Of a stretch of DNA of 64,000 nt, positions 1,614-53,320 are shown one piece after another. Made by a program: the position numbers and the translations under genes. Every line of letters starts with the position of its first letter. Within the stretch, counting starts at the first letter, position 1. Under the pieces are notes generated by a model. The model saw only the letters and a program-made list of their open reading frames with translations. It was not told where the DNA came from and did not search any database. Source of the DNA: Chloroflexi bacterium GWB2_49_20 (GTDB lineage Bacteria > Chloroflexota > Anaerolineae > Anaerolineales > Villigracilaceae); contig MGMF01000014.1 of the NCBI GenBank assembly GCA_001796335.1, positions 195,982 through 259,981 of the forward strand, in the 5' to 3' direction.

Positions 1614-1667
1614 CTGTGTGGTTCCTTCTGATGAATTATTATAGCACAAATGGTCTATGCGCAGAAC

Positions 1668-1852
1668 GTATCTACTCACGTCCATAATTGCGATTAATTC
1701 CACAGTGGCAGAACGCTGCTGTTCAATGCAAAAAAGCTCTATCTTCTGTCTTTGCGAGGAGCATCCTCCCAGCGACGTGGCAATCCCCTTGCTGGAGAGG
1801 AGACTGCCACGCTGCGCTCGCAGTGACAAAATCTGATATGGTGAGTAGATAC
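1668..1852. mobile_element. MITE-like element, copy 1
   Basis: A 185-bp non-coding element starts with GTATCTACTCAC and ends with the exact reverse complement GTGAGTAGATAC. It is flanked on both sides by the same 8 bases, CGCAGAAC (1660-1667 and 1853-1860), a perfect target-site duplication. A second copy in the opposite orientation lies at 13640-13870. The interior carries TGCGAGGAG / GCTCGCAGTGAC arms that can fold into a hairpin and resemble the repeat at 24180-24299. It encodes no protein, so it would be moved by a transposase elsewhere. It fills most of the gap between ftsK and rnz. Confidence 0.85.
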
Positions 1853-1930
1853 CGCAGAACCATAACCAGCCTGCAAGTTTCCCTCCCTGAATGAGGTAAA
1901 ATAGAGGGAAATTCTGGAAAGGATCCGCTT

Positions 1931-2848: not shown

Positions 2849-2852
2849 GGTT

Positions 2853-3833: not shown

Positions 3834-4004
3834 ACATGGGAAACTTGGAAATTCTTAAACTCCTGGTCATTGGTTCCCCGGTTTGCATTGGCAGTGATGT
3901 CACTTTAGGATTGCATCCCGTGTATAAAAATGCTGTATTGAAAATTTGGTGATTCGATTTGATTCTGTGATCTCAAATTTGCAAACTTTCAAAACGTTGC
4001 TTGC

Positions 4005-7181: not shown

Positions 7182-7423
7182 TCTTGGTAAGGGATCATAC
7201 CATTCACATGATCCAAGCCGGAATATCATGCACGTAAATCGAACGTTTACCACCCAAAAATAATAAATTACAGTATTTATGCTTTTTTGGGATGGAAGCA
7301 AGGAATAAAGTTCCTAAAAATATTATATATCACTCGATAAGATTTGCAACTTGGAGCCAATTATAAATAAATCGGGAAAGAAAACTCTGGGAAGAACAGA
7401 TAATCATATCAAGGAGTATCAGG

Positions 7424-10747: not shown

Positions 10748-11526
10748 CCCGGGATCATGACCCTCGCAGGGCACATCGCCACAAATATATTTTTTATAAA
10801 ACCATGAGGAGCGGGAACAGGTCGAATGGGGCTACTTGGCTGAGCTGGTAGCCCCAGTTCAGCAGACGCCGGGCAGCGCGCCACTGAAAGGGTCGCAGAA
10901 TGAACCTTGCGTTCCCAGCCAGACAATCTTTCTCCTGCTACCCTTTCCTCCAGCGCACCCTCGCGCCTGGGCAGTAATTCCGCGCTCGTACATCCTTATG
11001 GGGGTAGTCCCTTCACTCTTCAGGTACTCCGCCTGGGCGAATTCGCAAACAATGGGGCGGTTCAATACGTATTCTTTGTGAAAATATTCCCGAAATTGCA
11101 ATATCTGTTGGAAGTTGTATACTAATGTAATCCAAATCGCACATTGAATATGGATATTCTCTTAGTTATTGGGACATCTTCAGTCAGAAAGAAATTATTT
11201 TAGGGATTGGCTGAACGTGATTTTTTAATTTTATCCTTAAACCATTCAACCGCAAAATGGCGGCTGGTGCCTGCGGGGACGATCATGCGAAATACACAGT
11301 CATGGACAGAATCTTAACCTCGACCACGACAGTTACACCCCAAACGAGAGGAAAATAAATGAAGACCAGAAGATTTGTTAGTTTAGAGGCATGGCACATC
11401 ACCACGAAAAACTTAACACGCTGCGGGACAGGATAGTTCTTTCCTTCATTCCATCAATGAAAACTTGGGAACAAACGTTATCACCTGATTATAAAAACCT
11501 ATCTATTAAAAATATTGGAGATTAAG
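10748..11526. other. Long intergenic region between the second and third FN3-repeat genes
   Basis: About 780 bases with no convincing gene. The first ~50 bases match the region downstream of the third gene (13582 on; both carry CCGGGATCA then CGCCACA and a T/A-rich tail), showing that the 3' flank was copied along with the gene end. A 9-bp hairpin with arms TGGGGCTAC (10827-10835) and GTAGCCCCA (10848-10856) lacks a T run. Nothing else is recognised. Confidence 0.6.
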
Positions 11527-13581: not shown

Positions 13582-13639
13582 CCCGGGATCACAAACCTGG
13601 TAGACCGCCTCGCCACATAGTATTTTATATAGGATCAGC

Positions 13640-13870
13640 GTATCTACCCACCATATCAGATTTTGTCACTGCGAGCGCAGCGTGGCAGTCTCCTCTCCGG
13701 CATGGGGATTGCCACCCCAAAAAGCATCGGGGTCTTCGGCGTCGCTGGGAGGACACGATAAGCCAGTGCGTATGTGCTCCTCGCAAAGACAGAAGATAGA
13801 GCTTTTTTGCATTGAACAGCAGCGTTCTACCACTGTGGAATTAATCACAATTATGGACGTGAGTAGATAC
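13640..13870. mobile_element. MITE-like element, copy 2 (inverted relative to copy 1)
   Basis: 231-bp relative of the element at 1668-1852 in the opposite orientation. Ends are GTATCTACCCAC (one mismatch) and GTGAGTAGATAC. Flanking octamers GGATCAGC and GAATCAGC match at 7 of 8 bases, consistent with an older 8-bp target duplication. It differs from copy 1 mainly by extra bases in the middle of the hairpin region. The two copies bracket rnz, pfkA and all three FN3-repeat genes. Confidence 0.82.
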
Positions 13871-13914
13871 GAATCAGCAGGAATATGACCGATCCATAAG
13901 TAAGGTTCACTCGC

Positions 13915-14046
13915 CTGTCTTTGCAGAAAGGGATCAATGCGCTGGTGGGGCTAAAATGTCGCATCCAGATGATGGTCCATAAGCACGCGGCCAATCAGGA
14001 ATATTACGATATCCCTGTCAACTGGCGCGCTGAAAAAGAAGTTTGA
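13915..14046 (+). pseudogene. Decayed C-terminal fragment of a phosphofructokinase
   Basis: The frame ending at the TGA 14044-14046 reads ...NALVGLKCR...HKHAANQEYYDIP. The last residues of the intact pfkA in this window read ...VMVGLKGQ...HQRAANMEYYEMA. The spacing and the shared H-x-x-A-A-N-x-E-Y-Y block indicate homology. There is no start codon or N-terminal part, and an in-frame stop lies just upstream at 13897. The fragment abuts the right end of the MITE copy. It is a relic, not a gene. Confidence 0.55.
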
Positions 14047-14167
14047 AATCACATGAACCCTGGTTTGATCTTCAAGGAGGTCTTTGGTCCAGCCATGCTA
14101 TAATTATATAAATTAATTGGGTGCATTTTCAAATGGCAATCGTGCCTTGATAAAGAGGGATAATTAA

Positions 14168-15115
14168 ATGAAACTCATAATTTACCTGCCTGCTCTAAAT
14201 GAGGAAGAGACTATTCCTTGTGTTATTGCAAGTCTTCCTAAAACACTGGATCAAATTGATACCATTCAGATCCTTGTTATTGACGACGGATGTATGGATG
14301 GGACAGTTTCGCTTGCACGATCTTTGGGCGCCCAGGTAGTTTCTCATAGATGGAATCGCGGGGTAGGGGCAGCGTTTCAATCTGCTGTCCAGTTTGCCTT
14401 GGAGAATAACGCCGATATTTTGGTAGGGATTGATGCCGATGGACAGTTTGACCCGGCAGAAATACCTGGTCTGATCAAGCCTATTCTTGCCGATCAGGCC
14501 GACATGGTAATTGGCAACCGTTTTCTTCAAGGTAAACCCAAGAGCATGCCCCGTCTCAAGTTCTGGGGTAATAATCAACTCGCTTCAGTCATTAGTTTTG
14601 TCGGCGGACAAAAATTTCGGGATGTTTCCTGTGGTTTCCGTGCGTACAATCGGGAGGCTTTATTACATCTCACTTTATTTGCAGACTTTACTTATACACA
14701 TGAGACCATCCTGTCCCTTATTTTTCAAGGATTGACGGTCGTTGAATCTCCGATCAAAGTTACATACAATTCTGAACGAAAGTCACGAGTGGCCGGGTCA
14801 ATCATAAAGTATGCCATACAGACCAGCAAAATCATTATGCGGGTTCTATTGGACTATCGCCCGATCTATTTATTTGGCAGCGCTGGAATGGCCTTTATAT
14901 CCATAGGGGTCTTTTTTGTGCTGTTTCTTATGGGGCATTATGTCCTTACCCAAAGTTTTACGCCGTATAAATCCTATGGTTTCATTGGATTGGGTTTTTT
15001 TATTTTTGGAATGCTGCTGCTTATAATTGCATTGGTGGCAGATATGTTAAATAGGTTGCGGAGCAATCAGGACGAGATGCTTTATTTAATGAAGATGGCA
15101 AGGTATAAAAAATAA
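14168..15115 (+). CDS. Family 2 glycosyltransferase, DPM1/polyprenyl-phosphate type
   Basis: 315 residues, ATG after GAGGGA. The N-terminal GT-A domain shows LPALNEEETI, VIDDGCMDGT and GIDADGQFDP (DxD-like metal site), then a conserved GNRF...GFRAYNREA block, as in dolichyl/polyprenyl-phosphate mannose synthases. Two C-terminal hydrophobic helices (about 238-262 and 272-296) anchor it. It should transfer a sugar from a nucleotide to a polyprenyl phosphate on the cytoplasmic face. The GT39-like enzymes encoded nearby on the other strand are plausible users of such lipid-linked sugars. Confidence 0.86.
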   Translation: MKLIIYLPALNEEETIPCVIASLPKTLDQIDTIQILVIDDGCMDGTVSLARSLGAQVVSHRWNRGVGAAFQSAVQFALENNADILVGIDADGQFDPAEIPGLIKPILADQADMVIGNRFLQGKPKSMPRLKFWGNNQLASVISFVGGQKFRDVSCGFRAYNREALLHLTLFADFTYTHETILSLIFQGLTVVESPIKVTYNSERKSRVAGSIIKYAIQTSKIIMRVLLDYRPIYLFGSAGMAFISIGVFFVLFLMGHYVLTQSFTPYKSYGFIGLGFFIFGMLLLIIALVADMLNRLRSNQDEMLYLMKMARYKK

Positions 15116-15133
15116 TTTCCAGGAGTCTTCATA

Positions 15134-16186
15134 TTGAAGCTATTATTTATTACACGTACCTATCCACCGCTTGTTGGAGGCATGGAGACGTTTGCCTGTG
15201 ATTTCTATGAGAATTATCGTAAGAAGGGAAATGTGGACCTTCTTGCAAATACAGGCGGAAAGAAAACAATCCCCTTCTTTTTTATCAAGGCGATATTTTC
15301 CCTTATTTTCTATTCGAAAAAATATGATGTTGTTCATATCTATGACGCGGTTTTATCTCCCCTGGCTTTGATCGTAAAAATATTTTCCAATGCGAAGGTT
15401 TCGTTTACGGTGAATGGTCTGGATATAGTGTACCCTCGTTTTGGATACCAAAAATTTATGCCATTTTTTCTTTGCAAAGCGGACAAGGTCTTTGCGATCA
15501 GCCATTACACCCTGGAACAATGTGTGCTTCGTGGGATACCAAAAGAAAAGCTGGCGGTCATTCCGGTGGGGCTTGACTCTAATAAAGCCGAGATCTTTTC
15601 GGAAGAGAAAAAGTCTGTGCTTATGGCAAGACTTAATGTTCCAGGAAAAGAAAAAAAAATATTGGTGACTGTGGGTAGGTTGGTAAAACGCAAGGGACAT
15701 GCCTGGTTTGTTGAACATGTCTTGAAAAAACTTCCAGATCAATATATCTACTTAATTGCAGGTGATGGACCGGAACGGGACTCGATTGTGGAGGTTGCGC
15801 GTCGTTTGGATTTATCGGATCGGGTGTATTTACTGGGACGTGTTTCTGAAGAAGAAAAAAACTGCCTTTATCAAATTGCAGACCTGTTCGTGATGCCAAA
15901 TATCCATGTGGAAAACGACCAGGAAGGCTTTGGGATCGTACTGTTGGAGGCAGGACGATACGGGCTGCCAGTGATCGCCTCCAACATTGAGGGGATCCGG
16001 GATGTTGTGATCGACCAGAAGACTGGCCGGCTTATTGAGGAAAAGGATGCCCAGGGATTTGTGAATGAAATTGTAAATTTTAACCCTGATCGTACCTCAA
16101 TTTCCGCTTCCCTGGCATCTTTATTTAATTGGGGTGGGATTGTGGATAGGTATTACAGAGAATTCGAGAAAATGAATTCGGGATAA
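15134..16186 (+). CDS. GT4-family glycosyltransferase (GT-B fold)
   Basis: 350 residues starting at TTG 15134, 18 bases after the GT2 gene, with AGGAG before it. N-terminal YPPLVGGMETFA is the usual acceptor-side loop of GT4 enzymes; the C-terminal half carries LVTVGRLVKRKG and the donor-binding EGFGIVLLEAGRYGLPVIAS with the E-x7-E motif. No membrane segment. It probably adds hexoses to a lipid-linked glycan together with the neighbouring transferases. The sugar cannot be told from sequence. Confidence 0.88.
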   Translation: MKLLFITRTYPPLVGGMETFACDFYENYRKKGNVDLLANTGGKKTIPFFFIKAIFSLIFYSKKYDVVHIYDAVLSPLALIVKIFSNAKVSFTVNGLDIVYPRFGYQKFMPFFLCKADKVFAISHYTLEQCVLRGIPKEKLAVIPVGLDSNKAEIFSEEKKSVLMARLNVPGKEKKILVTVGRLVKRKGHAWFVEHVLKKLPDQYIYLIAGDGPERDSIVEVARRLDLSDRVYLLGRVSEEEKNCLYQIADLFVMPNIHVENDQEGFGIVLLEAGRYGLPVIASNIEGIRDVVIDQKTGRLIEEKDAQGFVNEIVNFNPDRTSISASLASLFNWGGIVDRYYREFEKMNSG

Positions 16187-29440: not shown

Positions 29441-29514
29441 GGCCCTGTAGCTCAGTGGATTAGAGCGATTGCTTGCGGAGCAAAAGGTCGCGTGTTCGAA
29501 TCACGCCAGGGTCA
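29441..29514 (+). tRNA. tRNA-Arg (anticodon GCG)
   Basis: 74-nt cloverleaf. Acceptor GGCCCTG pairs with CAGGGTC (one G-T) and discriminator A; D stem GCTC/GAGC; anticodon stem ATTGC/GCAAA with an A-A mismatch at its outer end and loop TTGCGGA giving anticodon GCG (positions 29475-29477); T stem GCGTG/CACGC with loop TTCGAAT. CCA is not encoded. GCG reads CGC/CGU arginine codons, where most bacteria use ACG. The last six bases of this gene begin the 272-bp repeat A1. Confidence 0.92.
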
Positions 29515-29780
29515 CTCGCGTCAGATATAACCAGTCAGAATTTCGCGAATATTGAGGAGTTCCTGGCTGGTTTGCGTTTTGAGCAGAGGTGGAAATTAGA
29601 GGGATTGCCAGTCACCCTCAAGGTGAGTTCTAGGTGATATATTTTTACCAAACATTATCCCTATTAGTAGAACTCAATAATCACATATCTGTCAAAGAGG
29701 AGTCCTCTATACCTGTTACAGCCACCCTATATACCCATTATACGAAAAACGACAGAAATGGTAAGAAACTTGTGGTTAAA
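29509..29780. repeat. Direct repeat A, copy 1 (left end of module 1)
   Basis: 272 bp starting inside the 3' end of tRNA-Arg (GGGTCAC). It matches 43242-43513 without gaps and with three mismatches by eye. It contains an imperfect 44-bp palindrome (29529-29572, arms AACCAG/CTGGTT around a TTCGCGAA core) followed by a T-rich stretch, which may terminate the tRNA transcript, and a short frame (IYFYQTLSLLVELNN...) closed by a stop in this copy. The rest of the region to 30128 shows no gene. Confidence 0.95.
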
Positions 29781-30128
29781 TAAAACCAATTATGTTTGAA
29801 GAGGGGGTAATTTGATACTTACCTTGAAAAAACCAAAGTAAATAATGATCGGTGTTTTGGGACCATGTGATTATTCAACAGTAATGAACTAATAGAATCC
29901 AAAAGAAGTGGTGAAGTTATGAAATTGTCAGTCTCGATCCCTGAATATTTTTTTCAGTCGAAAACCAAAGGTCCTCATGAGCCATGGTCGGAGGTTCCCC
30001 AAAAAATGGGACTTCGCAAATCCCCCTCCGCAACTTCCATCAAACATGTTACCCCCTGATTTAAGGACTTCCCATACATCGAATGAGATATTATCGAGTA
30101 AAATTCTTAACAAAGGAAAGGATTGCTT

Positions 30129-42889: not shown

Positions 42890-43241
42890 ATGGGGTTCTT
42901 AAACGTCTTTGGTCAGGGGCGAATTCCCCTCCGTTACAATTCAAGCAAGTGTAGTTCCCAGGCTCTTTAATTAACTAGTAGCAATCACCCTATCAGAATT
43001 GATATATGTTGTACCAATGGTCTTATCGGTTATCATTTTCTATTTCTTCAACTCATAATCCGGAGATCGCAGGTTTAGAACTAAGCAACATAGTCTGGCC
43101 GAAGACTTCTATTTATAAATAGGTAACCATGGCAATACTTGACGAAACCCGCAGTTTCAATTAGATTCTAAAAGGTAATTCTTTTGTTCCGTATTTTTTT
43201 CTGAATTCAGGAAAGGGTGTGGTTCGGAACAGATTCGCTTG
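42890..43241. repeat. Repeat B, copy 1 (right end of module 1)
   Basis: About 350 bp, a partly conserved relative of 52940-53283. It begins with a sequence like the 3' half of a tRNA (AGGGG...CCCCT then TCCGTTAC), continues with patchy similarity, and has a 56-bp core identical in both copies (43131-43186). It ends GATTCGCTTGGGGTC directly against repeat A2. It fills the gap between the lyase gene and A2 and encodes no protein. Confidence 0.8.
43139..43167 (+). promoter_or_regulatory. Promoter-like pair in repeat B1
   Basis: TTGACG, 17 bases, TAGATT, reading rightward, within the perfectly conserved core. The same pair recurs at 53179-53207. Confidence 0.4.
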
Positions 43242-43513
43242 GGGTCACTCGCGTCAGATATAACCAGTCAGAATTTCGCGAATATTGAGGAGTTCCTGGC
43301 TGGTTTGCGTTTTGAGCAGAGGTGGAAATTAGAGGGATTGCCAGTCACCCTCAAAGTGAGTTCTAGGTGATATATTTTTACCAAACATTATCCCTATTAG
43401 TAGAACTCAATAATCACATATCTGTCAAAGAGGAGTCCTCTATACCTGTTACAGCCATCATATATACCCATTATACGAAAAACGACAGAAATGGTAAGAA
43501 ACTTGTGGTTAAA
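43242..43513. repeat. Direct repeat A, copy 2 (left end of module 2)
   Basis: 272 bp matching 29509-29780 with three substitutions and no gaps (offset 13733). It starts at the same GGGTCAC core. Here the internal short frame stays open a little longer and runs into the end of the ADP-ribosylglycohydrolase gene on the other strand, which is not taken as evidence of coding. Confidence 0.95.
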
Positions 43514-43527
43514 AAAGCCAATTATGA

Positions 43528-44526
43528 TTATGGATTATCAATCACTGCAACCAATTGCTTTGCCTGCATTGTCAGATCAAAATGATTAACCTGCTCCAAC
43601 AAGTTCAACCAAGAATTCGGGAATGCTGAAGACCCTTTCCAAGCTCCGCAAACAGCGCCAGCGATCGCCCCGATCGTATCAGTATCCCCGCCAATATTAG
43701 CGCACAAGGTAACTGCCTGCACCGGGTCACCTTGTGCCAGTTTCACGATACCAAAAGCTACAGCAACTGACTCGGCTACCAGGAGGTCAACCCCGATAAA
43801 GTTATAAAGTTCATCTAAGGCTTCTTCTGTACTTGAAGCTTGATTTACCAGATGTAATGCGAGGAAGATGCGTTTCTCCAGGGATGTTCCCCAGACGATA
43901 TGGCCAAGTTGAGCGCCAAGCAGAGCGCCTTTTAGGGCTGCCTGCAATACCGACTGTAAACTTGTGTTGGGCAGGAACGCTTGGGATACAGCGCAAGCGA
44001 CTGCGCCGGCGCCAGCAATGGCAAGATTGGTGCCATGGGTAGGGAGGCTGATTAAATAAGCCGTTTCCAACGCGGCCTGTATATCTCCTGGATGCAACAG
44101 GCCAGCGATCGGTGCGCGCATGGCGGCCCCATTGGTTCGTCCTTCCCACCCCGCCTCTTCAAGAGCCCTCCCTTGTTCCAATAATTCCAAAGCCCGGAGC
44201 GTGCTTGGACCAACAATATGATCAAATTCTGCCCCTAAAGATTTTTTCCATTCTATTAGCGCATTGGCGATTATCTGTGAAGTAATGTGTCCATTATTCT
44301 GTACAACTGTCCGTACAATAGCCAGTGCCTGACCTGTATCATCTGTTATACACCCAGCAGGCATATCAGCATGAAAATGATCTTTATGAGGAGCTAGGAA
44401 GCGATCTACCCATCCATATTGGGTTTTGATCTTTTCGGGGGTCATAAATTCGGTTGGCATTCCAAATGCATCGCCACTAGCCAACCCCAGTAAACAACCA
44501 AGGATGCGATCTTCTATATCATCCAT
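43528..44526 (-). CDS. ADP-ribosylglycohydrolase family protein (DraG-like)
   Basis: 332 residues. All-helical ARH fold with the metal-binding motifs at the start (GLASGDAFGMP), GCITDDTGQA (the D-D-T metal triad) and ANIGGDTDTIGAIAGA near the C-terminus. Family members hydrolyse N- or O-ribosyl bonds in ADP-ribosylated proteins, ADP-ribose or small ribosides. It is the last gene of the cargo 2 operon, 6 bases after the PfkB kinase, which favours a role on an imported riboside rather than on a protein. The stop is 15 bases from repeat A2. Confidence 0.85.
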   Translation of the reverse strand: MDDIEDRILGCLLGLASGDAFGMPTEFMTPEKIKTQYGWVDRFLAPHKDHFHADMPAGCITDDTGQALAIVRTVVQNNGHITSQIIANALIEWKKSLGAEFDHIVGPSTLRALELLEQGRALEEAGWEGRTNGAAMRAPIAGLLHPGDIQAALETAYLISLPTHGTNLAIAGAGAVACAVSQAFLPNTSLQSVLQAALKGALLGAQLGHIVWGTSLEKRIFLALHLVNQASSTEEALDELYNFIGVDLLVAESVAVAFGIVKLAQGDPVQAVTLCANIGGDTDTIGAIAGAVCGAWKGSSAFPNSWLNLLEQVNHFDLTMQAKQLVAVIDNP

Positions 44527-44532
44527 TGATAT

Positions 44533-45471
44533 TTACTCCAAAGGATAAGAAGATATAAAAAGATCCAACTGTTTACGGGAGGGCAATCCGCTTCGAGCAC
44601 CGGGGTGGCCTATTTTGATGGCAGCCGCGGCACAACCGTAACGAATGGAATCCTTTAATGAGTCACCCAAAAGCAACCCTGCGATCAACCCGCCTGCCAG
44701 CGCATCGCCAGCTCCTGTAGTATCCACGACAGAGTCAACCGGAAATATTGGAAGAAGGAAGAATTGTTCTGCATTAACACAGATAACCCCCTGTTGACCC
44801 AGGGTGATCACCACGTTTCGCGCACCCCTTGCGAAAAATTCCCTAGCTGCCAACTCTGGGGGATAATCAGGCAATAGACTATTAGATTCACTTTGATTGA
44901 GTAAAAGCACATCAACTTCAGGTAATACTCCGATAAGAGACTCCAATCCTTTCGAAGCAATTATCCCGCCCGGGCTATAGACCAATATACTTCTTTGTGT
45001 ACGGGCAATTCCCGCTGCGAATTGAAGAATATCGTGTCCTACATCAGTTAAATAGAACAGGCGCGCCCTTGATAAATATTCATAATCGAGTTCTTCGTGG
45101 TTCTCAACTGGACCCGCGCCTCCAAAAGCAACAATGCTGCGATCGCCGAAAGAATCAATGGCGATAAAACAAATCGCTGTGGGAAGGTCATGAACAATGC
45201 GGCATGCAACAGTATCAACTTTTTCGTGAACGAATTCATTAAGGAGGGTCTGCCCATTCTCATCAGAACCAATTCGAGCAATGAATCCAACCTTCAAGCC
45301 CAACCGTGAAACTGCGACCGCCACATTTGCACCTGCCCCGCCTGGCTGCATCTCAACATTGCGAGCCAGTTCGATGCTGTCCCTGGCAGGCAGATGATCG
45401 ACCCAGGCCAGGATATCCATCGCAGCCGCACCAATTACGACCGCGTCCAGATCAGGCGCGAATGGGGTCAC
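44533..45471 (-). CDS. PfkB-family carbohydrate kinase
   Basis: 312 residues starting with GTG at 45471, overlapping the EcfT stop (GTGA). Ribokinase fold: AWVDHLPARDS, GGAGANVAVAVSRLG, and the catalytic DTTGAGDALAGGLIAG. It phosphorylates a sugar or nucleoside; ribose or a riboside is plausible next to an ADP-ribosylglycohydrolase. The substrate cannot be fixed from sequence. Confidence 0.88.
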   Translation of the reverse strand: MTPFAPDLDAVVIGAAAMDILAWVDHLPARDSIELARNVEMQPGGAGANVAVAVSRLGLKVGFIARIGSDENGQTLLNEFVHEKVDTVACRIVHDLPTAICFIAIDSFGDRSIVAFGGAGPVENHEELDYEYLSRARLFYLTDVGHDILQFAAGIARTQRSILVYSPGGIIASKGLESLIGVLPEVDVLLLNQSESNSLLPDYPPELAAREFFARGARNVVITLGQQGVICVNAEQFFLLPIFPVDSVVDTTGAGDALAGGLIAGLLLGDSLKDSIRYGCAAAAIKIGHPGARSGLPSRKQLDLFISSYPLE

Positions 45472-46286
45472 TGTCCGCTTCCGAGTAACCCTAACTGTAA
45501 AACGCCAAAGCCAAATATGCGCAACAAGATACTGAAAACCAGGAAGACTGCCATGCTGATCAAGATGACCTTATCGGAACGCTTCATCTTTAACTCTCGT
45601 ACGAAGGTTCTCGGTGTGTAAGGGTCATACGCTCTGGATTCCATGGCGATACTCAAATCGCTCACGATCTTAAGCGCCCGCAGGGTTAATGGAATGATGT
45701 ATGCTGTATGTTTGCGAAAGCGGGTTATCAAACCACCTTTATCAAATTCTGTGGCCCTTGATCTCTGAGCCTCCATAATGGTGGAGTGTTCAGACTGGAA
45801 TTGAGGAATCAATCTCAGGATGATCCCGATCACCATCGAGAACACCATTGACACCCGCAACCCGTATAAGCCGGTGATGATATCGCGGGTGGGAGTTGTC
45901 ATTGCGACGATCAGGAAAGCAAACAGAACCGAAGTGATGCGCAAGGCCACAGACAAACCTTTCAGAACGCCATAATCTGTCACTGACCAGCCAAAAACAT
46001 GAAACAAGGGGACGCCCTCATTCCGAAGAAAAATAGTCCAGATTACCCAGCTTGTCAGGCCGACATAAATTCCGAGCTTTCCGGCATTGACCACTTTACC
46101 CAAGGAAAGACCGCCCGCAATGGAGGCCAGCAATAAAGAGGCCATGGTGAAGGATTGAAAGACGGGGTCTGTGAACACCATGATCATGGCGAATACCCAT
46201 AGAATGTACAAAAGCTTAATGCGCGGGTCGATCCGCGAAAGAAATGACTCATTACCTTCATAAAAAGAAGTTCGAATCGATGACAT
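45468..46286 (-). CDS. ecfT: ECF transporter transmembrane subunit EcfT
   Basis: 272 residues from ATG 46286, which follows the ATPase stop by one base and has GGGAG in the end of that gene; an in-frame ATG further upstream would overlap the ATPase by 40 bases. Five or so helices and the Arg-containing coupling motifs (AQRSRATEFDKGG and SDLSIAMESRAYD), the usual Ala-Arg-Gly/Ala type. It links the ATPases to the S subunit in the energy-coupling module. Confidence 0.87.
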   Translation of the reverse strand: MSSIRTSFYEGNESFLSRIDPRIKLLYILWVFAMIMVFTDPVFQSFTMASLLLASIAGGLSLGKVVNAGKLGIYVGLTSWVIWTIFLRNEGVPLFHVFGWSVTDYGVLKGLSVALRITSVLFAFLIVAMTTPTRDIITGLYGLRVSMVFSMVIGIILRLIPQFQSEHSTIMEAQRSRATEFDKGGLITRFRKHTAYIIPLTLRALKIVSDLSIAMESRAYDPYTPRTFVRELKMKRSDKVILISMAVFLVFSILLRIFGFGVLQLGLLGSGQ

Positions 46287-46287
46287 G

Positions 46288-48000
46288 CTATTGGACTCCC
46301 TCAAAAAGCGAAACCATATCCTGCACACGGATGACCTGTTGTTTTAGATTGTAGGAGGCAAGGGTATTGCTGAGTTCTGCGACTTCAGGCAACGAGATAT
46401 TGCACTCATTCAAAAGCTCTTTCTGTTGAAAGATACTTTCAGGCGACCCCGCTATCTTAATGGCTCCATCGCGCATGGCGATCACCCGACTTGCATAATT
46501 AGCCGCCAGGGAAACATCGTGTGTGATGATGATAACGGTCAGGCCGCGGTCGTGCAAAGAAGAGATATAACGCATGATGCGCAAGGCGACATTGTAATCA
46601 GCTCCGGTCGCAGGTTCATCCAGGACAAGTACATGAGGTTCCATGATCAGCACAGACGCGATAGCGATCAGTTTCCGCTCTGCGAGTCCCATAAAGTAAG
46701 GTTCTGCCTCGCGCCGGTCCTCCATTTCGATGTCATGCAGGGCGCGCTGGACTGCCTGTTCGATGCGATCCGCTGACCAACCCAGATTTTTTGGACCAAA
46801 GGATAATTCATCCCCGACAGTTTTTGAAAAGATCTGGTGGTCGGGATTTTGGAAAACATATCCAACGCGGGTTGCCAGGTGTGCGACGGATTCTTTTTGA
46901 GTATCCAACCCCTCGACAAGCACCTGCCCCTTGTTGGGTTTTAGCAGTCCATTTAGATGTTTTGCCAAAGTAGTTTTACCAGCACCATTCTGACCCATGA
47001 TCGCAAGAAAATCCCCACTGTCGATGTTGAGATCAATTCCTTGCAGGACCATTCTTCCATTCGGGTATCCGAATGAAACATTTTTTATTTCGATTAAATG
47101 TTTTTCAGGCGCTGGCGTTTCAACACGCGGCATGACCTGAAGGCTCACCCCCTGGATCATCGCACCAAATTTTTCCGTGGCCTGTGCGATACTGATCGGC
47201 AGGGTACCGATCCATAGTTTTCGTTTTCGTAACTGGTAACTTATTTCGGTCACATCCGGCAACTTTACACCGGAACCACGGACCAACTCTGCCTGGTCCA
47301 ATACGATTTCAGGAGTATCGATCACAAGCACTTTGCCGTCATCAAGGATGAGCAGTCGATGAGCATATGGCAGGACCTCGTGTAATTCCTGATCAACAAT
47401 AAAGATCGTAATGCCATGTTCCCGATTCAAAAAGGATATGGTTTCCAACACATCCTGTTTGCCGATCGGATCCAATTCAGCAGTCGGGTTATCCAGCACC
47501 AATAACTGGGGACGGAACGCCAGGGCTGATGCAATTGCAAGGCGCTGTTTCTGACCTCCTGAAAGATTCCATGGGGAAGAATTTTGCAAATGGCTTAACT
47601 TGACCACATCGAGCGCCCAATCTACGCGTTCCCTGATTTCTTCGCGCGGCAACATGATATTCTCAAGGCCAAATTCCACGTCTTCGCGGACAGTCAATCC
47701 CACCAACTGGGACTCTGCACTTTGCAGAACGATTCCTACCTTGGAAGCAAGGACGGCAGGTGCGGCGTCACGGGTATTCAATCCATAGATCAGGACAAAG
47801 CCTTCCATTTTCCCACCGAAACTATGAGGCACAAGGCCATTCAGGGTGTAACAAAGCGTACTTTTGCCGGAACCTGTACGGCCAGCGACCGCGATGAATT
47901 CTCCAGGTTGGATCTGAAAAGTGATATCCCGTAATACCCATTTGTTTTCAAAACCGCGGTAAGCGTAACTCAAACCCTGTATGTCTACAATTGGATCCAT
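46288..48000 (-). CDS. ecfA: ECF transporter ATPase, two fused nucleotide-binding domains
   Basis: 570 residues. NBD1 (1-240): Walker A GRTGSGKST (40-48), signature LSGGQ (146-150), Walker B VLDNPTAELD with Asn171 where the catalytic Glu belongs, and Gln204 at the switch-His position. NBD2 (300-570): Walker A GQNGAGKTT, signature degenerated to MGLAE (437-441), normal Walker B Asp461-Glu462, switch His494. The substitutions pair up: one composite site keeps every catalytic element, the other loses Glu, His and signature. Energises uptake with EcfT and the S subunit. Confidence 0.9.
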   Translation of the reverse strand: MDPIVDIQGLSYAYRGFENKWVLRDITFQIQPGEFIAVAGRTGSGKSTLCYTLNGLVPHSFGGKMEGFVLIYGLNTRDAAPAVLASKVGIVLQSAESQLVGLTVREDVEFGLENIMLPREEIRERVDWALDVVKLSHLQNSSPWNLSGGQKQRLAIASALAFRPQLLVLDNPTAELDPIGKQDVLETISFLNREHGITIFIVDQELHEVLPYAHRLLILDDGKVLVIDTPEIVLDQAELVRGSGVKLPDVTEISYQLRKRKLWIGTLPISIAQATEKFGAMIQGVSLQVMPRVETPAPEKHLIEIKNVSFGYPNGRMVLQGIDLNIDSGDFLAIMGQNGAGKTTLAKHLNGLLKPNKGQVLVEGLDTQKESVAHLATRVGYVFQNPDHQIFSKTVGDELSFGPKNLGWSADRIEQAVQRALHDIEMEDRREAEPYFMGLAERKLIAIASVLIMEPHVLVLDEPATGADYNVALRIMRYISSLHDRGLTVIIITHDVSLAANYASRVIAMRDGAIKIAGSPESIFQQKELLNECNISLPEVAELSNTLASYNLKQQVIRVQDMVSLFEGVQ

Positions 48001-48026
48001 AATTCCTCAGTTGTGCAATAGAAGGA

Positions 48027-48048
48027 GGGAGGACCGAGAGGTCCTCCC
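48027..48048 (-). promoter_or_regulatory. Stem-loop between the S-subunit and ATPase genes
   Basis: Perfect 9-bp arms GGGAGGACC / GGTCCTCCC around a 4-base loop, without a strong T run. Likely an mRNA-stability or partial-termination element inside the operon. Confidence 0.5.
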
Positions 48049-48081
48049 CATTGATATAACCCATTGACCAGGCGAGGGATG

Positions 48082-48822
48082 TTAACCCTTTTCGTACTGC
48101 ATTTCATCACGGGACAAGCCATAGCGCTTGGCTGCTGGACCGATCACACGCGCCACAATTGGACCCAACAGACCGCCTATGAAAGTGGTTACAATCACGG
48201 CAGGGAATACAGCTGTCCAGACGACCTCTGTTGGCAGCAAGTTGAGCAACTGGAAATTCGTGCAAAGGTAGAAGGCGCCAAGGAAGCACCACAGGATGGT
48301 GGTCAGGTAATATTTACCCCACGCGTTAGCCTTCAACATGGAATATTCTTCAGATGACTTATAGAAGCGATAGAACAGATAAGCCATCCACCAGGAGATA
48401 ATGAAACCGGCGATGGAGCCTGGTCCAAGTGTTCCAGCTAAGGCATCACCAATGATGTTGGAAATCATGACACCCCAGACGGCGGGCATGCCAAAGATCG
48501 CACCAAACGGGAATCTTATCAAGGCATCTGCCCGGAATGTAATCGTGCCAGGCACCAGTACAATGACCGCACCGACAGCCTGGAGGATTACCGAAAGCGC
48601 TGCGGTCATTGCTACCACTGCCACTGCCTTCACATTCCAGCGACGCTCCACCTTCACAAAGAACGGTGCGTGCAGGACGAATTGATAATTGAATATCTCG
48701 CCGATGAAGATGATCGACATTGGGATACTTAGAATGATTCCCAATACGAACATTCCATTGAAGGTAACCAACGAAGCGAGTTTGCTGAAAAAGCCTAACA
48801 GGGAAGTAAGAAATGCTTGCAT
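48082..48822 (-). CDS. ECF transporter substrate-binding (S) subunit, specificity unknown
   Basis: 246 residues, ATG after AAAGGAG. An extra N-terminal helix, then the S-subunit core: VKAVAVVAMTAALSVILQAVG (Ala-rich first helix that docks on EcfT), PGTITFRADALIRFPFGAIFGMPAVWGVMISNIIGDAL, and four more helices. The long second half and the insert between helices are unusual for the small vitamin S subunits. It does not match thiamine, biotin, riboflavin or folate types that I recognise. Operon partners suggest a ribosylated or sugar-like ligand. Confidence 0.78.
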   Translation of the reverse strand: MQAFLTSLLGFFSKLASLVTFNGMFVLGIILSIPMSIIFIGEIFNYQFVLHAPFFVKVERRWNVKAVAVVAMTAALSVILQAVGAVIVLVPGTITFRADALIRFPFGAIFGMPAVWGVMISNIIGDALAGTLGPGSIAGFIISWWMAYLFYRFYKSSEEYSMLKANAWGKYYLTTILWCFLGAFYLCTNFQLLNLLPTEVVWTAVFPAVIVTTFIGGLLGPIVARVIGPAAKRYGLSRDEMQYEKG

Positions 48823-48925
48823 GTCTGTCTCCTTTGGTCTATATAAGATAATTTTTCACGAATATCAGTTCTTTCCTTCATTTGTATAATTACCGATTCA
48901 ATATGGTGTCAGGCACCTCCTTGGT

Positions 48926-49951
48926 TTAAGCTGGAAATTCAACCAGATATTTAATCCCGCGATACTCCGCCATATCCATCAATGCGTTACGAATATTATC
49001 CATTTTCACAGTACCACTTATGATATGGCCCAATTCCTCGCGCATCGACCCCAACAAGTCGACGGCCTGGCGAAAGTGGTGAGGGGCAAAACCAAATGTC
49101 CCGACCAGGCTGACCTCATTGTAGTGAATCAGGTTTGGATCCAGACTCATCATTTGCCCTTTGGGCATGCCGGCATAAATATTTAGAATGCCTCCTTTGC
49201 GAACAAATTGCATGGAAGACTCAACCACACGAGTATCTCCAACAGAAACCATCATTTTGTCAGCGCCAGCTGGCGCGACTTTTTTAATTTCAACAGCCAG
49301 ATCCTGCCGACCGGCATCAATGACCAAATCTGCTATTGCGCGTGCCTTGGCCAGGCGCTCCGGAATCATTCCAGTCAGGATGATTTTCTGCACTCCCATT
49401 TTTCTTGCTAATAGGGATTGCAATAGTCCCATTGTGCCATCGCCAATAACTATTAAGGTATCTTCTGGTTGCAGGTGCAGAACCTCCAAGCCGTGAATAC
49501 AGCATGCCAGCGGTTCCGCGAGAGAGCCCAGGGAAAAGGAGATATCGTCTGGCAAATGAATCAAATCTTGGGCAACTATGCGATCAGGAACACGAACATA
49601 TTCGGAAAAACCGCCCGGATCAATCCCCTGTTCCATTAGTCGATCACAGGTGGTATATGATTTTCTCTTGCATTGCGGACATTCAAGACAGGGAGCATAC
49701 GGAGCAACCGCAACTCGGTCGCCAAGCTGCCAACCATCCACACGGTTGACTTCTATGATCACACCGGCAATTTCATGGCCAATCACTGAACCAGGCTGGA
49801 TCTTTGGATGGCCGCGTAGGAAGGTTTTAACATCCGTGGCACATATACCCGCTGAACGAACTTGAACTTTCACCTCGCCGGAGCAAAGATCAGGAATGGG
49901 GGTTTCTTCAACGCGAATTTCACCAGGTCCGTAATAGCGCAGGGCTTTCAT
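48926..49951 (-). CDS. Zinc-dependent medium-chain alcohol/polyol dehydrogenase
   Basis: 341 residues. Catalytic zinc site GICATDV (Cys) and GHEIAG (His-Glu), structural zinc lobe CLECPQCKRKSYTTC with four Cys, and a nucleotide-binding strand VIGDGTMGLLQSLLARK. Resembles sorbitol/threonine dehydrogenases. Start ATG overlaps the stop of the kinase upstream by four bases. Oxidises an alcohol in the cargo 2 pathway; substrate unknown. Confidence 0.87.
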   Translation of the reverse strand: MKALRYYGPGEIRVEETPIPDLCSGEVKVQVRSAGICATDVKTFLRGHPKIQPGSVIGHEIAGVIIEVNRVDGWQLGDRVAVAPYAPCLECPQCKRKSYTTCDRLMEQGIDPGGFSEYVRVPDRIVAQDLIHLPDDISFSLGSLAEPLACCIHGLEVLHLQPEDTLIVIGDGTMGLLQSLLARKMGVQKIILTGMIPERLAKARAIADLVIDAGRQDLAVEIKKVAPAGADKMMVSVGDTRVVESSMQFVRKGGILNIYAGMPKGQMMSLDPNLIHYNEVSLVGTFGFAPHHFRQAVDLLGSMREELGHIISGTVKMDNIRNALMDMAEYRGIKYLVEFPA

Positions 49952-50973
49952 AGTATTCTTTTTTGTTCCTTTTTAATTTTGATTGATCGAACAGCATTCG
50001 TACAAACACCGAAGGAAACTTCTTGGTCAGTTACTAAGAGTCGCAATGGCGTTCCATCCACACATAATCCAGTGCCTCCACGCACCCCCCGCACGTGAAT
50101 GCGATCCTGTTCACTAAAACTGAGATAGGAGGAATGAATGATTGGCAGCGCTAGAACGTCATTGGAATTCAATTCAACCTGTACCAGTGGCTGGTCAGCC
50201 ACGAGGCAACCTGCTTGCAAACCGCTAAAAGCAGTCAGGCAAACGCCCCCGGTGATTGCTTTGGCAATGAAGGATGATTCGGCCAACCCTATAATTACCG
50301 TACTGACAGATTTACCGAAGGCGATCATTTGTCGGCCTTGTGGGCCAATACGCTCCACTTGTGTTTGATCTAACCCGATTGAAGCGGGAAGGGCAGGAAC
50401 GGTTTGCCCGGAAAACTTTTTTGCGACACCTACATTGCGTAATTTCCCATCCAGCGTGGCAACTACCGTAAGGCCCAAGACGCAATCATTGAATCCGACA
50501 CCTATCAGGTCATCACCGACATACGCCATTAGAGCGGGTACTGGTATTTCATTTAACATGTCAGGGTTAAGGTGATCGATTTGATCTGAGGTACAAGTGA
50601 TTAATTCGCCTGCATTGGTCGAACCAGCACCAATCCCAAGCAAGGGAGGAGAGTTTTTGAACTGAGAAAAAATATAGGCGACATCTGCCAGTGTACCGTC
50701 GCCGCCCACTACCATGACTGCATCCAGACTTCGATTCACGAGCTTGACCGCCAGTTCCAGAGTTTGATCGCGGGAGACATCTTCCTGGATCGGGATAATT
50801 TCATGTTTGAAAGATAACCCTATTAAAGCATCAGCTCCGATCACGCCAATGCCTGTGATAACTTTACTAACACCAAGCGCTGTTAATCCTTTTTGAGCAA
50901 GGTTTATATTTACTGCTGCACCCTGCCCGGCAAAAGGATTAACAATCAAACCGATGGTCTGGAATCGCATCAT
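49948..50973 (-). CDS. ATP-NAD kinase-like (AcoX-type) protein
   Basis: 341 residues. N-terminal GLIVNPFAGQGAAVN and the NAD-kinase/diacylglycerol-kinase nucleotide motif VVGGDGTLADV, with GIGAGSTNAGE further on. The AcoX branch is found in acetoin and other catabolic operons and its real phosphoacceptor is unclear. It overlaps both neighbours by four bases, so it is tightly coupled to the aldolase and dehydrogenase. It may act on the carbon substrate rather than on NAD. Confidence 0.75.
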   Translation of the reverse strand: MMRFQTIGLIVNPFAGQGAAVNINLAQKGLTALGVSKVITGIGVIGADALIGLSFKHEIIPIQEDVSRDQTLELAVKLVNRSLDAVMVVGGDGTLADVAYIFSQFKNSPPLLGIGAGSTNAGELITCTSDQIDHLNPDMLNEIPVPALMAYVGDDLIGVGFNDCVLGLTVVATLDGKLRNVGVAKKFSGQTVPALPASIGLDQTQVERIGPQGRQMIAFGKSVSTVIIGLAESSFIAKAITGGVCLTAFSGLQAGCLVADQPLVQVELNSNDVLALPIIHSSYLSFSEQDRIHVRGVRGGTGLCVDGTPLRLLVTDQEVSFGVCTNAVRSIKIKKEQKRIL

Positions 50974-51722
50974 TTCGAGTGTATTGCCTTAACCAACCGG
51001 GTTAAAATCTGACCTGGTTGTTCCGTCTGCCAGAGGTTCCTTCCTACTGCAACTCCACGGGCTCCCGCCAGTTGAGATTGTTTTATCTCTTGGATCAAAT
51101 CCTCAGGGGATTGCCTGGATCCTCCAAGAATTACCAGAGGCACGTAACAGGCACTGGTGACAGCCTGATATGATTCGGCCGGACCCTGATAACGCATTTT
51201 TACAATATCTGCCCCGAGTTCAGCGCCCAGGCGGGCAGAAATGATCAGTTGATCAAACGTTACCTCTTTGGCTGCGAATCCCCCAGGCAGCATTTCCGCC
51301 ACCAGAGGTATACCCCACTCATCACAGCATGCGGCTACCTGCCCCATTGTGGCCAGGCTATGGGCTTCATCCGAGGTGCCAGTAATACCCATCAAAATGA
51401 CGGCATCTGCCCCCAGCCTCAACGCATCTTCCACTGAGCGGATAATCTCCATCTTTCCCCAATCCCCAGTCAGGGAGCTGGGACCACCATCAATGCGCAG
51501 GATCAACCCCGCGCCTATAAATAGGTCAGGGCAATGACGGGCAATCCCCGGGGTGGTAATGATCGCATCCGCACCATTTTGGACAAGTTCAGGAATCAAG
51601 ACTCGTGGGAACTCAAGATGTGCAAGCGGTGTAATTCCAGCGATCCCATGATCCATAGCAGCAATAACGGTTTTGCCATCCTGTTTAAAAATGCGATTAA
51701 GGCGAATTTGTTTATTTGTCAT
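50970..51722 (-). CDS. DhnA/LsrF-type class I aldolase
   Basis: 250 residues, TIM barrel of the DeoC/FbaB/LsrF superfamily: AAMDHGIAG, LRIDGGPSSLTGDW, AVILMGITGTSDEA, GADIVKMRYQGP (Schiff-base Lys) and ILGGSRQSPEDLIQEI. Enzymes of this group cleave or condense phosphorylated ketoses, including the AI-2 thiolase LsrF. With a SorC regulator upstream and a kinase and dehydrogenase downstream, it probably performs the C-C cleavage of a phosphorylated intermediate. Confidence 0.83.
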   Translation of the reverse strand: MTNKQIRLNRIFKQDGKTVIAAMDHGIAGITPLAHLEFPRVLIPELVQNGADAIITTPGIARHCPDLFIGAGLILRIDGGPSSLTGDWGKMEIIRSVEDALRLGADAVILMGITGTSDEAHSLATMGQVAACCDEWGIPLVAEMLPGGFAAKEVTFDQLIISARLGAELGADIVKMRYQGPAESYQAVTSACYVPLVILGGSRQSPEDLIQEIKQSQLAGARGVAVGRNLWQTEQPGQILTRLVKAIHSK

Positions 51723-52692
51723 TATTTTTTTCTTCTTTCAGGATAGAAAGTATCGTCCGGGCTGTTAAATCATCAGTAATGAGGGTTTGAATATATTTCC
51801 CCTTGATGGCACTCAAGATCGCTTGTGCTTTGGATGACCCGCTTGCAATTGCAATGACGTTTGGAACACGCCGTAACTGTTCGAGGGAGATACCGATCAC
51901 TCCTCTTAAACCATCCGTGATTGCATAACCATTCCGGTCAAAAAACTGCATGCAGATATCCCCCGTTGCGTCAGCAGACAGCAATCTTTGCCGAGTTTCC
52001 ACATCTAAATAATTGACGAACAGGACACTTAATTCAGTTTCAAAATCCACATTGCCGATACCAACCAAGGCTGTTGTAAGATGATCCCAAATACTTGTTA
52101 TCATTTTGCTGTCTTCTGACGCCATCAAATTGGATTTGGCCTCTTCGTTCTCAACAATTGCAGGTAAAAATAGCTGATACGAGGTACCCTTGAAGTTTTT
52201 TGCGAAGATCCTGATCAGTTCATTGACTTGAAAATGCGGCGAAATCTGCCCCAATCCACCCGTTAATGGCACAAGTGTGACATCGGTAACCGATTGCGGT
52301 TGCAGGGATTGCACAATGGCATATAAGGTTCGTCCCCAACCAACACCAACCACATCCTGCGGTTTTATATTTTTTTCGAGATACCTTGCTGCTGAAATTC
52401 CTACACGCTTCAAATTCAAATCAGGTGCGCTTGAAATTGCGGACGTAATAACAGCTTCTTTAAGCCCTGTCTCCCGACAGAACTCATCAACTAATTCTTG
52501 ATTGATCGCAAACGGATCCACCACAGTGATTGTTACAATATGTTCCTCGCGCGCTCGAACGAGAAGCCGGGAGATGGTAGGACGAGAAATTCCCATTGCT
52601 ACCGCAACTTCTTGTTGTGTGCACCCACCTTCATAGTACAGATGGGCAGCCATAGCCATTTGTTGCATTTCTTCGCGAAGTGTGATTGCCAT
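51712..52692 (-). CDS. SorC/DeoR-family transcriptional regulator
   Basis: 326 residues. N-terminal helix-turn-helix (AHLYYEGGCTQQEVAVAMGISRPTISRLLVRARE, about 16-50), then a SorC sugar-phosphate-binding domain (VGVGWGRTLYAI, GGLGQISPHFQVNEL, IASGSSKAQAILSAIKGKYIQTLITD). These regulators respond to phosphorylated sugars. First gene of the cargo 2 operon and only a few bases from a perfect palindrome, so autoregulation and control of the whole operon are likely. Overlaps the aldolase by 11 bases. Confidence 0.9.
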   Translation of the reverse strand: MAITLREEMQQMAMAAHLYYEGGCTQQEVAVAMGISRPTISRLLVRAREEHIVTITVVDPFAINQELVDEFCRETGLKEAVITSAISSAPDLNLKRVGISAARYLEKNIKPQDVVGVGWGRTLYAIVQSLQPQSVTDVTLVPLTGGLGQISPHFQVNELIRIFAKNFKGTSYQLFLPAIVENEEAKSNLMASEDSKMITSIWDHLTTALVGIGNVDFETELSVLFVNYLDVETRQRLLSADATGDICMQFFDRNGYAITDGLRGVIGISLEQLRRVPNVIAIASGSSKAQAILSAIKGKYIQTLITDDLTARTILSILKEEKNNDK

Positions 52693-52695
52693 AAT

Positions 52696-52734
52696 TAATA
52701 TTGAACAAATGTAATTTACATTTGTTCAATATTA
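52696..52734. promoter_or_regulatory. Perfect 18-bp-arm palindromic operator for the SorC-type regulator
   Basis: Arms of 18 bases (left arm reads TAATATTGAACAAATGTA) separated by ATT, fully symmetric. It ends 3 bases before the regulator start codon on the minus strand, so bound protein would block transcription or initiation of the operon. Confidence 0.8.
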
Positions 52735-52939: not shown

Positions 52940-53283
52940 CCCCAAACAGGATTCTCATAAGTCTACAGTCAGAGGTTCAAATCCCCCGCTACACCATTCA
53001 AATCCGTTGAACCCAGTCTTTTTTTCGAAACAAATCTCCTTTCCAAAAATGATGGATGTGATACAAATCAACTTGTTTTCTAGCGCTTCAAATCATAGCC
53101 CAGTGGTTGCAGGTGTAGACCTAAGAATTATGTCCAGCTGAAAGCTTCTATTTTAGGAATAGGTAACACTGGCAATACTTGACGAAACCCGCAGTTTCAA
53201 TTAGATTCTAAAAGGTAATTCTTTTGCGCCATATATTCCCCTGATCTCAGGGAAGGGCGTAGTTCGGAAAAGATTCGCGTTGG
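52940..53283. repeat. Repeat B, copy 2 (right end of module 2)
   Basis: Relative of 42890-43241. Opens with a tRNA-like 3' half (CTCATAA loop-like, AGAGGTTCAAATCCC, ending GCTACACCA at about 52995) that lacks a matching 5' half, continues with patchy similarity (TTCTAGCG/TTCAAATCATA region) and the 56-bp identical core 53171-53226, and ends GATTCGCGTTGGGTC. No protein is encoded. Confidence 0.8.
53179..53207 (+). promoter_or_regulatory. Promoter-like pair in repeat B2
   Basis: TTGACG (53179-53184), 17 bases, TAGATT (53202-53207). A transcript from here would end about 105 bases later at the terminator 53295-53320. Confidence 0.45.
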
Positions 53284-53320
53284 GTCTCCAGTTGGAAGCG
53301 GGAACACCCCGCTTCTTTTT
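53214..53320 (+). ncRNA. Candidate small RNA at the right end of module 2
   Basis: Bounded by the promoter-like pair upstream and an intrinsic terminator downstream, with no open frame. It contains a stem around CCCTGATCTCAGGG; the same stem in copy B1 is built from different bases (CTGAATTCAG flanked by T and A runs), one pair having changed from T-A to C-G, which suggests a conserved RNA fold. No known RNA family is recognised. Confidence 0.3.
53295..53320 (+). terminator. Intrinsic terminator before surE
   Basis: GAAGCGGG, 5-base loop, CCCGCTTC, then five T. Confidence 0.85.

Follow-up and report, generated by a model that had tools for sequence, protein, structure and literature searches.

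A putative carbon-source operon with its own ECF importer in a tRNA-anchored module of Chloroflexi bacterium GWB2_49_20

In a 64,000-nt stretch of contig MGMF01000014.1 of Chloroflexi bacterium GWB2_49_20 (the window, in whose positions all coordinates are given), nine genes at 43528-52692, all on the minus strand, form an operon that joins a transporter of the energy-coupling factor (ECF) type to enzymes of catabolic appearance (Table 1). Families were assigned by scans with Pfam and NCBIfam profiles. In order, the operon encodes a regulator, an aldolase, a kinase with a GGDGT motif, a dehydrogenase, the ECF S subunit, a fused ECF ATPase (A-A), the T subunit, a PfkB kinase and a hydrolase. 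A co-directional nine-gene cluster of this order and place had been proposed in an earlier reading of the DNA (the original prediction); open reading frames (ORFs) and family scans confirm it, and the gene families support its description as a catabolic-looking operon that carries its own ECF importer. The statement that the genes mostly overlap by 4 bp was, however, too strong, as only three of the eight junctions between the longest ORFs do so (aldolase/kinase, kinase/dehydrogenase and T/PfkB). Regulator and aldolase genes overlap by 11 bp, and those of A and T by 41 bp, an overlap that disappears if T begins at the ATG 14 codons further in. Gaps of 103, 81 and 6 bp separate dehydrogenase and S, S and A, and PfkB and hydrolase, respectively.

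Table 1. Genes and other features of the operon and of the module around it
Feature	Position	Strand	Basis or remark
Left-end repeat of cargo module	43242..43516	+	275 nt, 99% identical to 29509-29783
ADP-ribosylglycohydrolase-family protein, YegU-like	43528..44526	-	ADP_ribosyl_GH 6.1e-63
PfkB-family kinase, ribokinase-like	44533..45471	-	Pfam PfkB 2e-56
ECF T subunit, CbiQ-type	45468..46328	-	Pfam 2.5e-29; likely start ATG 46286
Fused ECF ATPase A-A, two ABC stretches	46288..48000	-	TIGR04520 479 bits, above the 315 cut-off
G+C-rich hairpin, 10-bp stem, between S and A genes	48001..48081	-	Folding of stretch 47990-48090
ECF S subunit, N-terminal extension, remotely QueT-like	48082..48822	-	Sub-threshold Pfam match
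Zn-dependent medium-chain dehydrogenase, threonine/sorbitol dehydrogenase-like	48926..49951	-	ADH_N and ADH_zinc_N
Diacylglycerol/NAD kinase superfamily kinase	49948..50973	-	GGDGT at residue 90; DAGK_cat 4.5e-9, NAD_kinase 4.1e-8
Class I aldolase, DhnA/LsrF/ADH-synthase group	50970..51722	-	DeoC/LacD aldolase Pfam 1.7e-31
SorC-family regulator, sugar-binding domain like B. subtilis DeoR	51712..52692	-	Pfam Sugar-bind 5e-62
Perfect inverted repeat, 19-nt arms, 1-nt spacer	52696..52734	strandless	3 nt before regulator start codon
Right-end repeat of cargo module	53076..53286	+	81% identical to 43036-43246

The aldolase was assigned to the class I DhnA group by alignment alone: Lys175 lies in a VKxxYxG motif and aligns, together with GGS and GRN motifs, with MJ0400 and an archaeal fructose-bisphosphate (FBP) aldolase. 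We take the lysine to form the Schiff base and the motifs to make up the phosphate site. Its scores stay under the equivalog cut-offs for ADH synthase (195.7 bits, cut-off 299.45), archaeal FBP aldolase (130.7, cut-off 430) and LsrF thiolase (129.1, cut-off 297). The GGDGT kinase matches none of the NCBIfam models and was placed in the diacylglycerol (DAG)/NAD kinase superfamily by its motif, its domain matches and its predicted fold (pLDDT 69.6), for which the best matches in the PDB are NAD kinases and DAG-kinase-like proteins; the TM-scores over the query are modest, 0.40-0.52 among the 50 matches listed. The dehydrogenase carries a four-cysteine cluster (Cys88/91/94/102) and a GHE motif at residue 58.

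S, A, A and T are encoded within one cluster, as in group I ECF transporters. The S subunit reached none of the Pfam or NCBIfam family cut-offs, those of vitamin families included; its match to QueT (PF06177; 3.4e-5, 24.6 bits) lies under the cut-off of 33.7, as does that of its Terriglobales homologue (21.9 bits). In the first ATPase domain the Walker B glutamate is replaced by asparagine (DNP) and the switch histidine by glutamine, and the second domain reads LAERK at the signature. These changes are common to all four homologues from such operons (window, L027, L028 and L030). The Walker B glutamate is kept in each of the five comparison ATPases with a readable first domain (G224, G261, G352, G321 and G329); two more were left out, the first domain of G369 being out of frame and that of G296 not matching the pattern. 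The second-domain signature strays from LSGGQ in comparison proteins as well (LGRG or LTK forms), so the distinctive feature is the first domain. The changes of the two domains land on one composite ATP site, which departs from the consensus in all four close homologues. Of its two ATP sites, the ATPase probably hydrolyses at one only, the other being judged dead from its residues. In the T subunit, where a coupling motif of the type Ala-Arg-Gly was expected, two SRA motifs were found, at residues 190 and 231.

The perfect inverted repeat in front of the regulator gene is probably the operator of the operon and may be bound by the regulator. Its outer edge coincides with the end coordinate of the original prediction, 52734. 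In 20 random 64-kb sequences generated with the dinucleotide transitions of the window, the longest inverted-repeat arm measured 8-11 nt. The regulator scores 238 bits against the NCBIfam DeoR model, under its cut-off of 420. Between the S and A genes the RNA is predicted to fold into a hairpin (z -2.6; 2 of 200 shuffles of 47990-48090 fold equally well), a possible attenuator or processing site. Rfam, searched at gathering cut-offs over the whole window, returned only the tRNA and no riboswitch. The substrates cannot be read from the names of the proteins, since hydrolase, PfkB, aldolase, dehydrogenase and regulator all score under the equivalog cut-offs and the T subunit scores under that of CbiQ.

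The distribution of the operon is scattered. Among 150 sampled genomes of the family to which the organism belongs, S matched in two, the source genome and G054 (93% identity), and among 400 genomes of the phylum in 11, all except that of the window at no more than 33% identity. In an Acidobacteriota sample S matched in 8 of 297 genomes, strongly only in G525. The kinase was found at full length only in the source genome among 301; three further Chloroflexota matches were set aside because they cover only 62-64 residues around GGDGT. Viral contigs searched with the kinase and plasmids searched with S and with the kinase yielded no relatives. A search of 84,980 species genomes with a single query protein, which picks up close relatives only, returned four contigs: L027, apparently contig 13 of G054; L028, from a Terriglobales metagenome genome (G525); and L029 and L030, from one Chloroflexi bin. 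L027 carries dehydrogenase (cut by the contig end), S, A-A, T, PfkB and hydrolase genes with 64-93% identity to those of the window, and L028 aldolase, kinase, dehydrogenase, S, A-A and T genes with 38-63% identity. L029 has SorC regulator, kinase, dehydrogenase and S genes, and L030 has S, A-A, T, a hydrolase of another subfamily and an aldolase.

Counting the window, the dehydrogenase adjoins S wherever the contig continues on its upstream side (four of four: window, L027, L028 and L029), S-AA-T is found wherever it continues downstream (four of four: window, L027, L028 and L030), and the kinase adjoins the dehydrogenase on all three contigs that extend beyond the latter. The aldolase lies inside the cluster in three of the four genomes, the other two being 55% and, in L030, 33-35% identical to that of the window. 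The conserved core thus consists of kinase, dehydrogenase, importer and, less tightly, aldolase; the hydrolase is usual but exchangeable (two subfamilies), and PfkB is present in two of the four genomes. The hydrolases of L028 and L030 resemble each other (29% identity, 118 bits). The L030 protein shares 23% identity with the hydrolase of the window; the L028 protein does not match the latter at E 0.01, does not fit the metal-motif pattern used, and is encoded on the opposite strand about 6 kb before the aldolase, with a leader-like start. Also on L028, a 735-residue protein (4959-7166) is encoded directly before the aldolase in the same direction; its C-terminal part holds an FGE-sulfatase domain, and its N-terminal half matches nothing in Pfam. 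The neighbourhood comparison suggested in the original prediction therefore came out in its favour for kinase, dehydrogenase and, less tightly, aldolase, which are co-conserved with S across Chloroflexota and Terriglobales. The same prediction had named, as an outcome that would speak against it, a vitamin-clade S subunit whose kinase and hydrolase genes are not co-conserved with it: S forms a clade of its own and the kinase is co-conserved, but the hydrolase is variable.

We consider it somewhat more probable than otherwise that these genes form an inducible operon for the use of a carbon source, a self-contained cargo in which an oxidise-phosphorylate-cleave pathway is served by a dedicated ECF importer and by an optional glycoside-opening step. 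Gene content and order, the families of importer, regulator and enzymes, co-conservation of the core and repeat-bounded ends are visible in the DNA itself; reactions and substrate are inferred. The SorC regulator would occupy the palindrome and be released as a phosphorylated intermediate accumulates. The importer, with its own S, A-A and T, would take up a polyhydroxylated compound: a polyol, a ketose, or a glycoside of either. A ketone would arise when the Zn dehydrogenase oxidises a secondary alcohol; the GGDGT kinase would phosphorylate this product, and the class I aldolase would split the resulting ketose phosphate into a piece of triose-phosphate size and an aldehyde. YegU-like hydrolase and PfkB would provide an accessory step, in which a glycoside is opened and the freed or still bound sugar is phosphorylated. 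Judging from the chemistry of the fold, this glycoside would most likely be a furanoside. The fixed sequence of hydrolysis, phosphorylation, oxidation and aldol cleavage put forward originally is one of several conceivable orders.

The original prediction favoured a riboside scheme. Spelled out, the hydrolase would split an imported nucleoside-like riboside, PfkB would phosphorylate the ribose, and the other enzymes would degrade the aglycone or a ribose derivative. ADP-ribosylglycohydrolases act on ribofuranosides. The hydrolase matches the family over its full length, belongs to its YegU-like members and has both Asp-rich metal motifs (TDDT and GGDTDT); it scores under the equivalog cut-offs of DraG (92.2 bits, cut-off 337.05) and of the ADP-ribosylarginine hydrolase Tri1 (55.8, cut-off 490). 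PfkB scores best with the ribokinase model TIGR02152 (161.5 bits, under the cut-off of 299.65). Relatives of the hydrolase occur in 93 plasmid records, with 35-41% identity among the 40 listed. In six of the seven plasmid regions inspected, such a hydrolase and a PfkB-type kinase adjoin an importer, which varies: a cytosine permease (Plesiomonas, L. plantarum), a nucleoside permease (Pantoea), a transporter of the major facilitator superfamily (MFS; Salmonella) or an ATP-binding cassette (ABC) importer (Mesorhizobium, Rhizobium). In the seventh, from Enterococcus, the hydrolase lies beside a beta-glucoside phosphotransferase system (PTS), and the incomplete gene list holds no PfkB. This pattern suggests a glycoside hydrolase that has a partner kinase except where phosphorylation is done by the importer. 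Since YegU-like hydrolases occur elsewhere beside PfkB and nucleoside or cytosine permeases, riboside uptake keeps some probability, and in G224 genes for a nucleoside hydrolase and a PfkB lie 3-4 kb upstream of an S relative. The other YegU-like hydrolases, beside the MFS transporter, ABC importers or PTS, count against it. Moreover, the hydrolase and PfkB, which the scheme requires, are the variable parts, with hydrolases that are non-orthologous between genomes (23% identity) and PfkB away from the ECF genes in two of the four. The operon has no isomerase or phosphorylase, and a ribose product would need neither dehydrogenase, second kinase nor aldolase. We therefore regard riboside uptake as unlikely.

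More distant relatives of S bear on the nature of the importer. In five Chloroflexota genomes (G224, G261, G352, G369 and G503) S aligns over nearly its full length, N-terminal extension included, with 24-33% identity. By profile, all five clusters contain a GntR-type gene (with the lowest score, 48.6 bits, in G224; at the distant end of its cluster in G352; confirmed by Pfam in G261, the one tested), and all four whose contigs extend contain PfkB and SIS genes, two of these four also BtpA. By contrast, the same profiles found no PfkB, SIS, GntR, hydrolase or nucleoside hydrolase at any of three QueT-like loci (G321, G329 and G296); the profiles were partly built from the compared loci, so that the scores of members are not independent, and three controls are few. 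The PfkB assignments in G261, in G352 and for the upstream copy of G224 were borne out by Pfam or NCBIfam, as were those of SIS in G369, G352 and G224. Beside T, the PfkB of G224 gives only two partial matches (42 and 53 bits), and the full one lies some 3 kb ahead of S. Clusters of this kind (L014, L016, L017, L018 and L006), with GntR, S-A-A-T, PfkB and SIS and sometimes BtpA/SgcQ, make up a second class of ECF loci of catabolic appearance in Chloroflexota; G224 also has a nucleoside hydrolase upstream.

In the tree of S subunits the clade of the window stands as its own group on a long branch (support 100/99), separate from the GntR/PfkB/SIS clade (87/83) and the QueT-like group (91/97), and the tree does not say which two of the three are closest; a sister relation between the first two was considered and is not decided by it. 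These data bear on vitamin or cofactor salvage, in which S would be a diverged importer of the queuosine/queuine type, hydrolase and PfkB would release the base from a riboside, and the remaining genes would be passengers. QueT is the sole Pfam relation of S, if a weak one, and six of ten other S relatives scanned exceed the QueT cut-off (L003, L004, L009, L010, L041 and L042; L008 scores under it, and L005, L006 and L007 do not match). The score of S itself under that cut-off and its separate clade argue against salvage, as does the joint occurrence of dehydrogenase, kinase and S in two phyla, which would not be expected of passengers; we hold this explanation to be improbable.

The layout of importer, PfkB and cleaving enzyme recurs in G261, G352, G369 and G224, where SIS replaces the hydrolase. 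It would fit the uptake of a conjugate resembling a glycosylamine or fructosamine, in which phosphorylation of the bound sugar by PfkB is followed by cleavage of the phosphorylated conjugate by the hydrolase, a role parallel to that of SIS deglycases in the related GntR clusters. The PTS-linked YegU-like gene, with no PfkB listed, is likewise consistent with cleavage after phosphorylation. An assignment of the SIS proteins as fructoselysine 6-phosphate deglycases was rejected, two of three scoring 18.9 and 24.3 bits against 430 and the third not matching. This weak or missing match speaks against conjugate uptake, which also leaves aldolase, dehydrogenase and second kinase without explanation, and little likelihood can be given to it.

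The operon forms the content of a tandem module anchored at a tRNA-Arg gene, a setting from which its movement is deduced. Behind tRNA-Arg(gcg), window positions 29441-53286 hold two tandem cargo modules, the second with the ECF operon, that have in common their left ends (29509-29783 and 43242-43516, 99%) and their right ends (43036-43246 and 53076-53286, 81%); 29509-29783, the first copy of the left end, starts 7 nt inside the 3' end of this tRNA gene. Apart from ORFs that overlap the ends, only the nine operon genes lie between the ends of module 2, and none of them encodes a recombinase. Further copies of the left end follow tRNA-Arg(cct) and tRNA-Glu(ctc) elsewhere in the source genome, and the left end was found in 8 of the 150 family genomes, the source genome included; 7 of 11 left-end loci from the other seven genomes (among L075-L085 and L086) adjoin a tRNA gene, Arg(cct) or Glu(ctc). 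Such recurring, tRNA-linked ends fit horizontal spread and the scattered distribution of the operon. Several side observations concern other modules. The five genes scanned in module 1 encode a sensor kinase, a response regulator and parts of a branched-chain-type ABC transporter. On contig 13 of the source genome (L073), a module of about 14 kb (1455-15576) behind tRNA-Arg(cct) encodes an oligopeptide-type ABC importer, a creatininase-like protein and an amidohydrolase, and no recombinase was found among the 8 scanned of its 10 larger ORFs. In L074 the left end lies behind tRNA-Glu(ctc) (3728-3801), near the contig end, and on contig 353 of G071 two left-end copies stand 10 kb apart with different genes between them. 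Just outside the operon, 52968-52997 resembles a tRNA 3' end and ends in CCA; with up to 3 mismatches allowed, the genome contains a single copy of its 25-nt core.

Beyond the operon itself, we tentatively suggest, at slightly less than even confidence, that the S clade and its relatives represent a class of ECF importers for sugar conjugates used as carbon sources and not for micronutrients; here the importer would be driven by an asymmetric fused ATPase with one dead site and spread with tRNA-anchored modules, of which the present one has no recombinase gene of its own. A number of observations weigh against the interpretation as a carbon-source operon. The tree does not join the S clade of the window to the GntR/PfkB/SIS clade, and a structure search with the S-subunit model was dropped, the prediction being too poor (mean pLDDT 48). 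PfkB adjoins the ECF genes in just two of the four genomes, and the 20.7-kb Terriglobales locus L028 has neither a SorC match nor PfkB. The genome behind L027 lacks a kinase match, perhaps for reasons of assembly, and its nearest DeoC-family protein examined is 32% identical and encoded on another contig. On L029 the regulator leads directly into the kinase, the aldolase of that bin being on L030, where the contig end cuts it before the lysine motif; L029 and L030 overlap with two differing residues and may therefore stem from two strains.

The combination of genes had not been recognised in the original prediction, and no description of it was found in the literature searched, which comprised titles and opening abstracts and mostly did not extend to subscription papers. 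Nor was a catabolic role of this kinase branch evident there. The operon is a variant on known themes, ECF transport on the one hand and polyol or ketose catabolism on the other. With group I ECF and QueT-like systems it shares the joint presence of S, two ABC domains and a CbiQ-type T as well as a remotely QueT-like S, but it differs in the sub-cut-off S, the catabolic partners and the replaced Walker B glutamate and switch histidine. As in E. coli yegTUV, which encodes a transporter, a hydrolase and a PfkB-type kinase, a YegU-like hydrolase and PfkB stand beside an importer. According to one report (PMC10819704), the yegTUV genes are without clear function, and the repressor YegW/GgaR senses ADP-glucose, its loss raising glycogen. 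Here, by contrast, the importer is of the ECF type and not YegT, the regulator is SorC and not GntR, PfkB is only 20-30% identical to YegU-linked kinases, and dehydrogenase, second kinase and aldolase are added. With the lsr operon for autoinducer-2 processing the genes share a SorC-family regulator (LsrR model 138 bits) and a DhnA/LsrF-type aldolase. In lsr, too, regulator and aldolase lie beside importer and kinase, but kinase fold, importer class and dehydrogenase are different here, and by score the aldolase is closer to MJ0400 than to LsrF. The same logic of oxidation, phosphorylation and aldol cleavage is followed by polyol pathways that combine a dehydrogenase, a kinase and an aldolase; the kinase of DAG/NAD-kinase fold and uptake by ECF set the present operon apart.

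With a clear candidate operator and a small set of genes, the question of the substrate should be answerable at the bench. ECF transporters are seen as importers that scavenge vitamins and metals. If our interpretation is true, ECF transport would reach into carbon nutrition through a dedicated importer linked with dehydrogenase, kinase and aldolase, and branches of the kinase and aldolase families whose members reach no model cut-off would gain a role.

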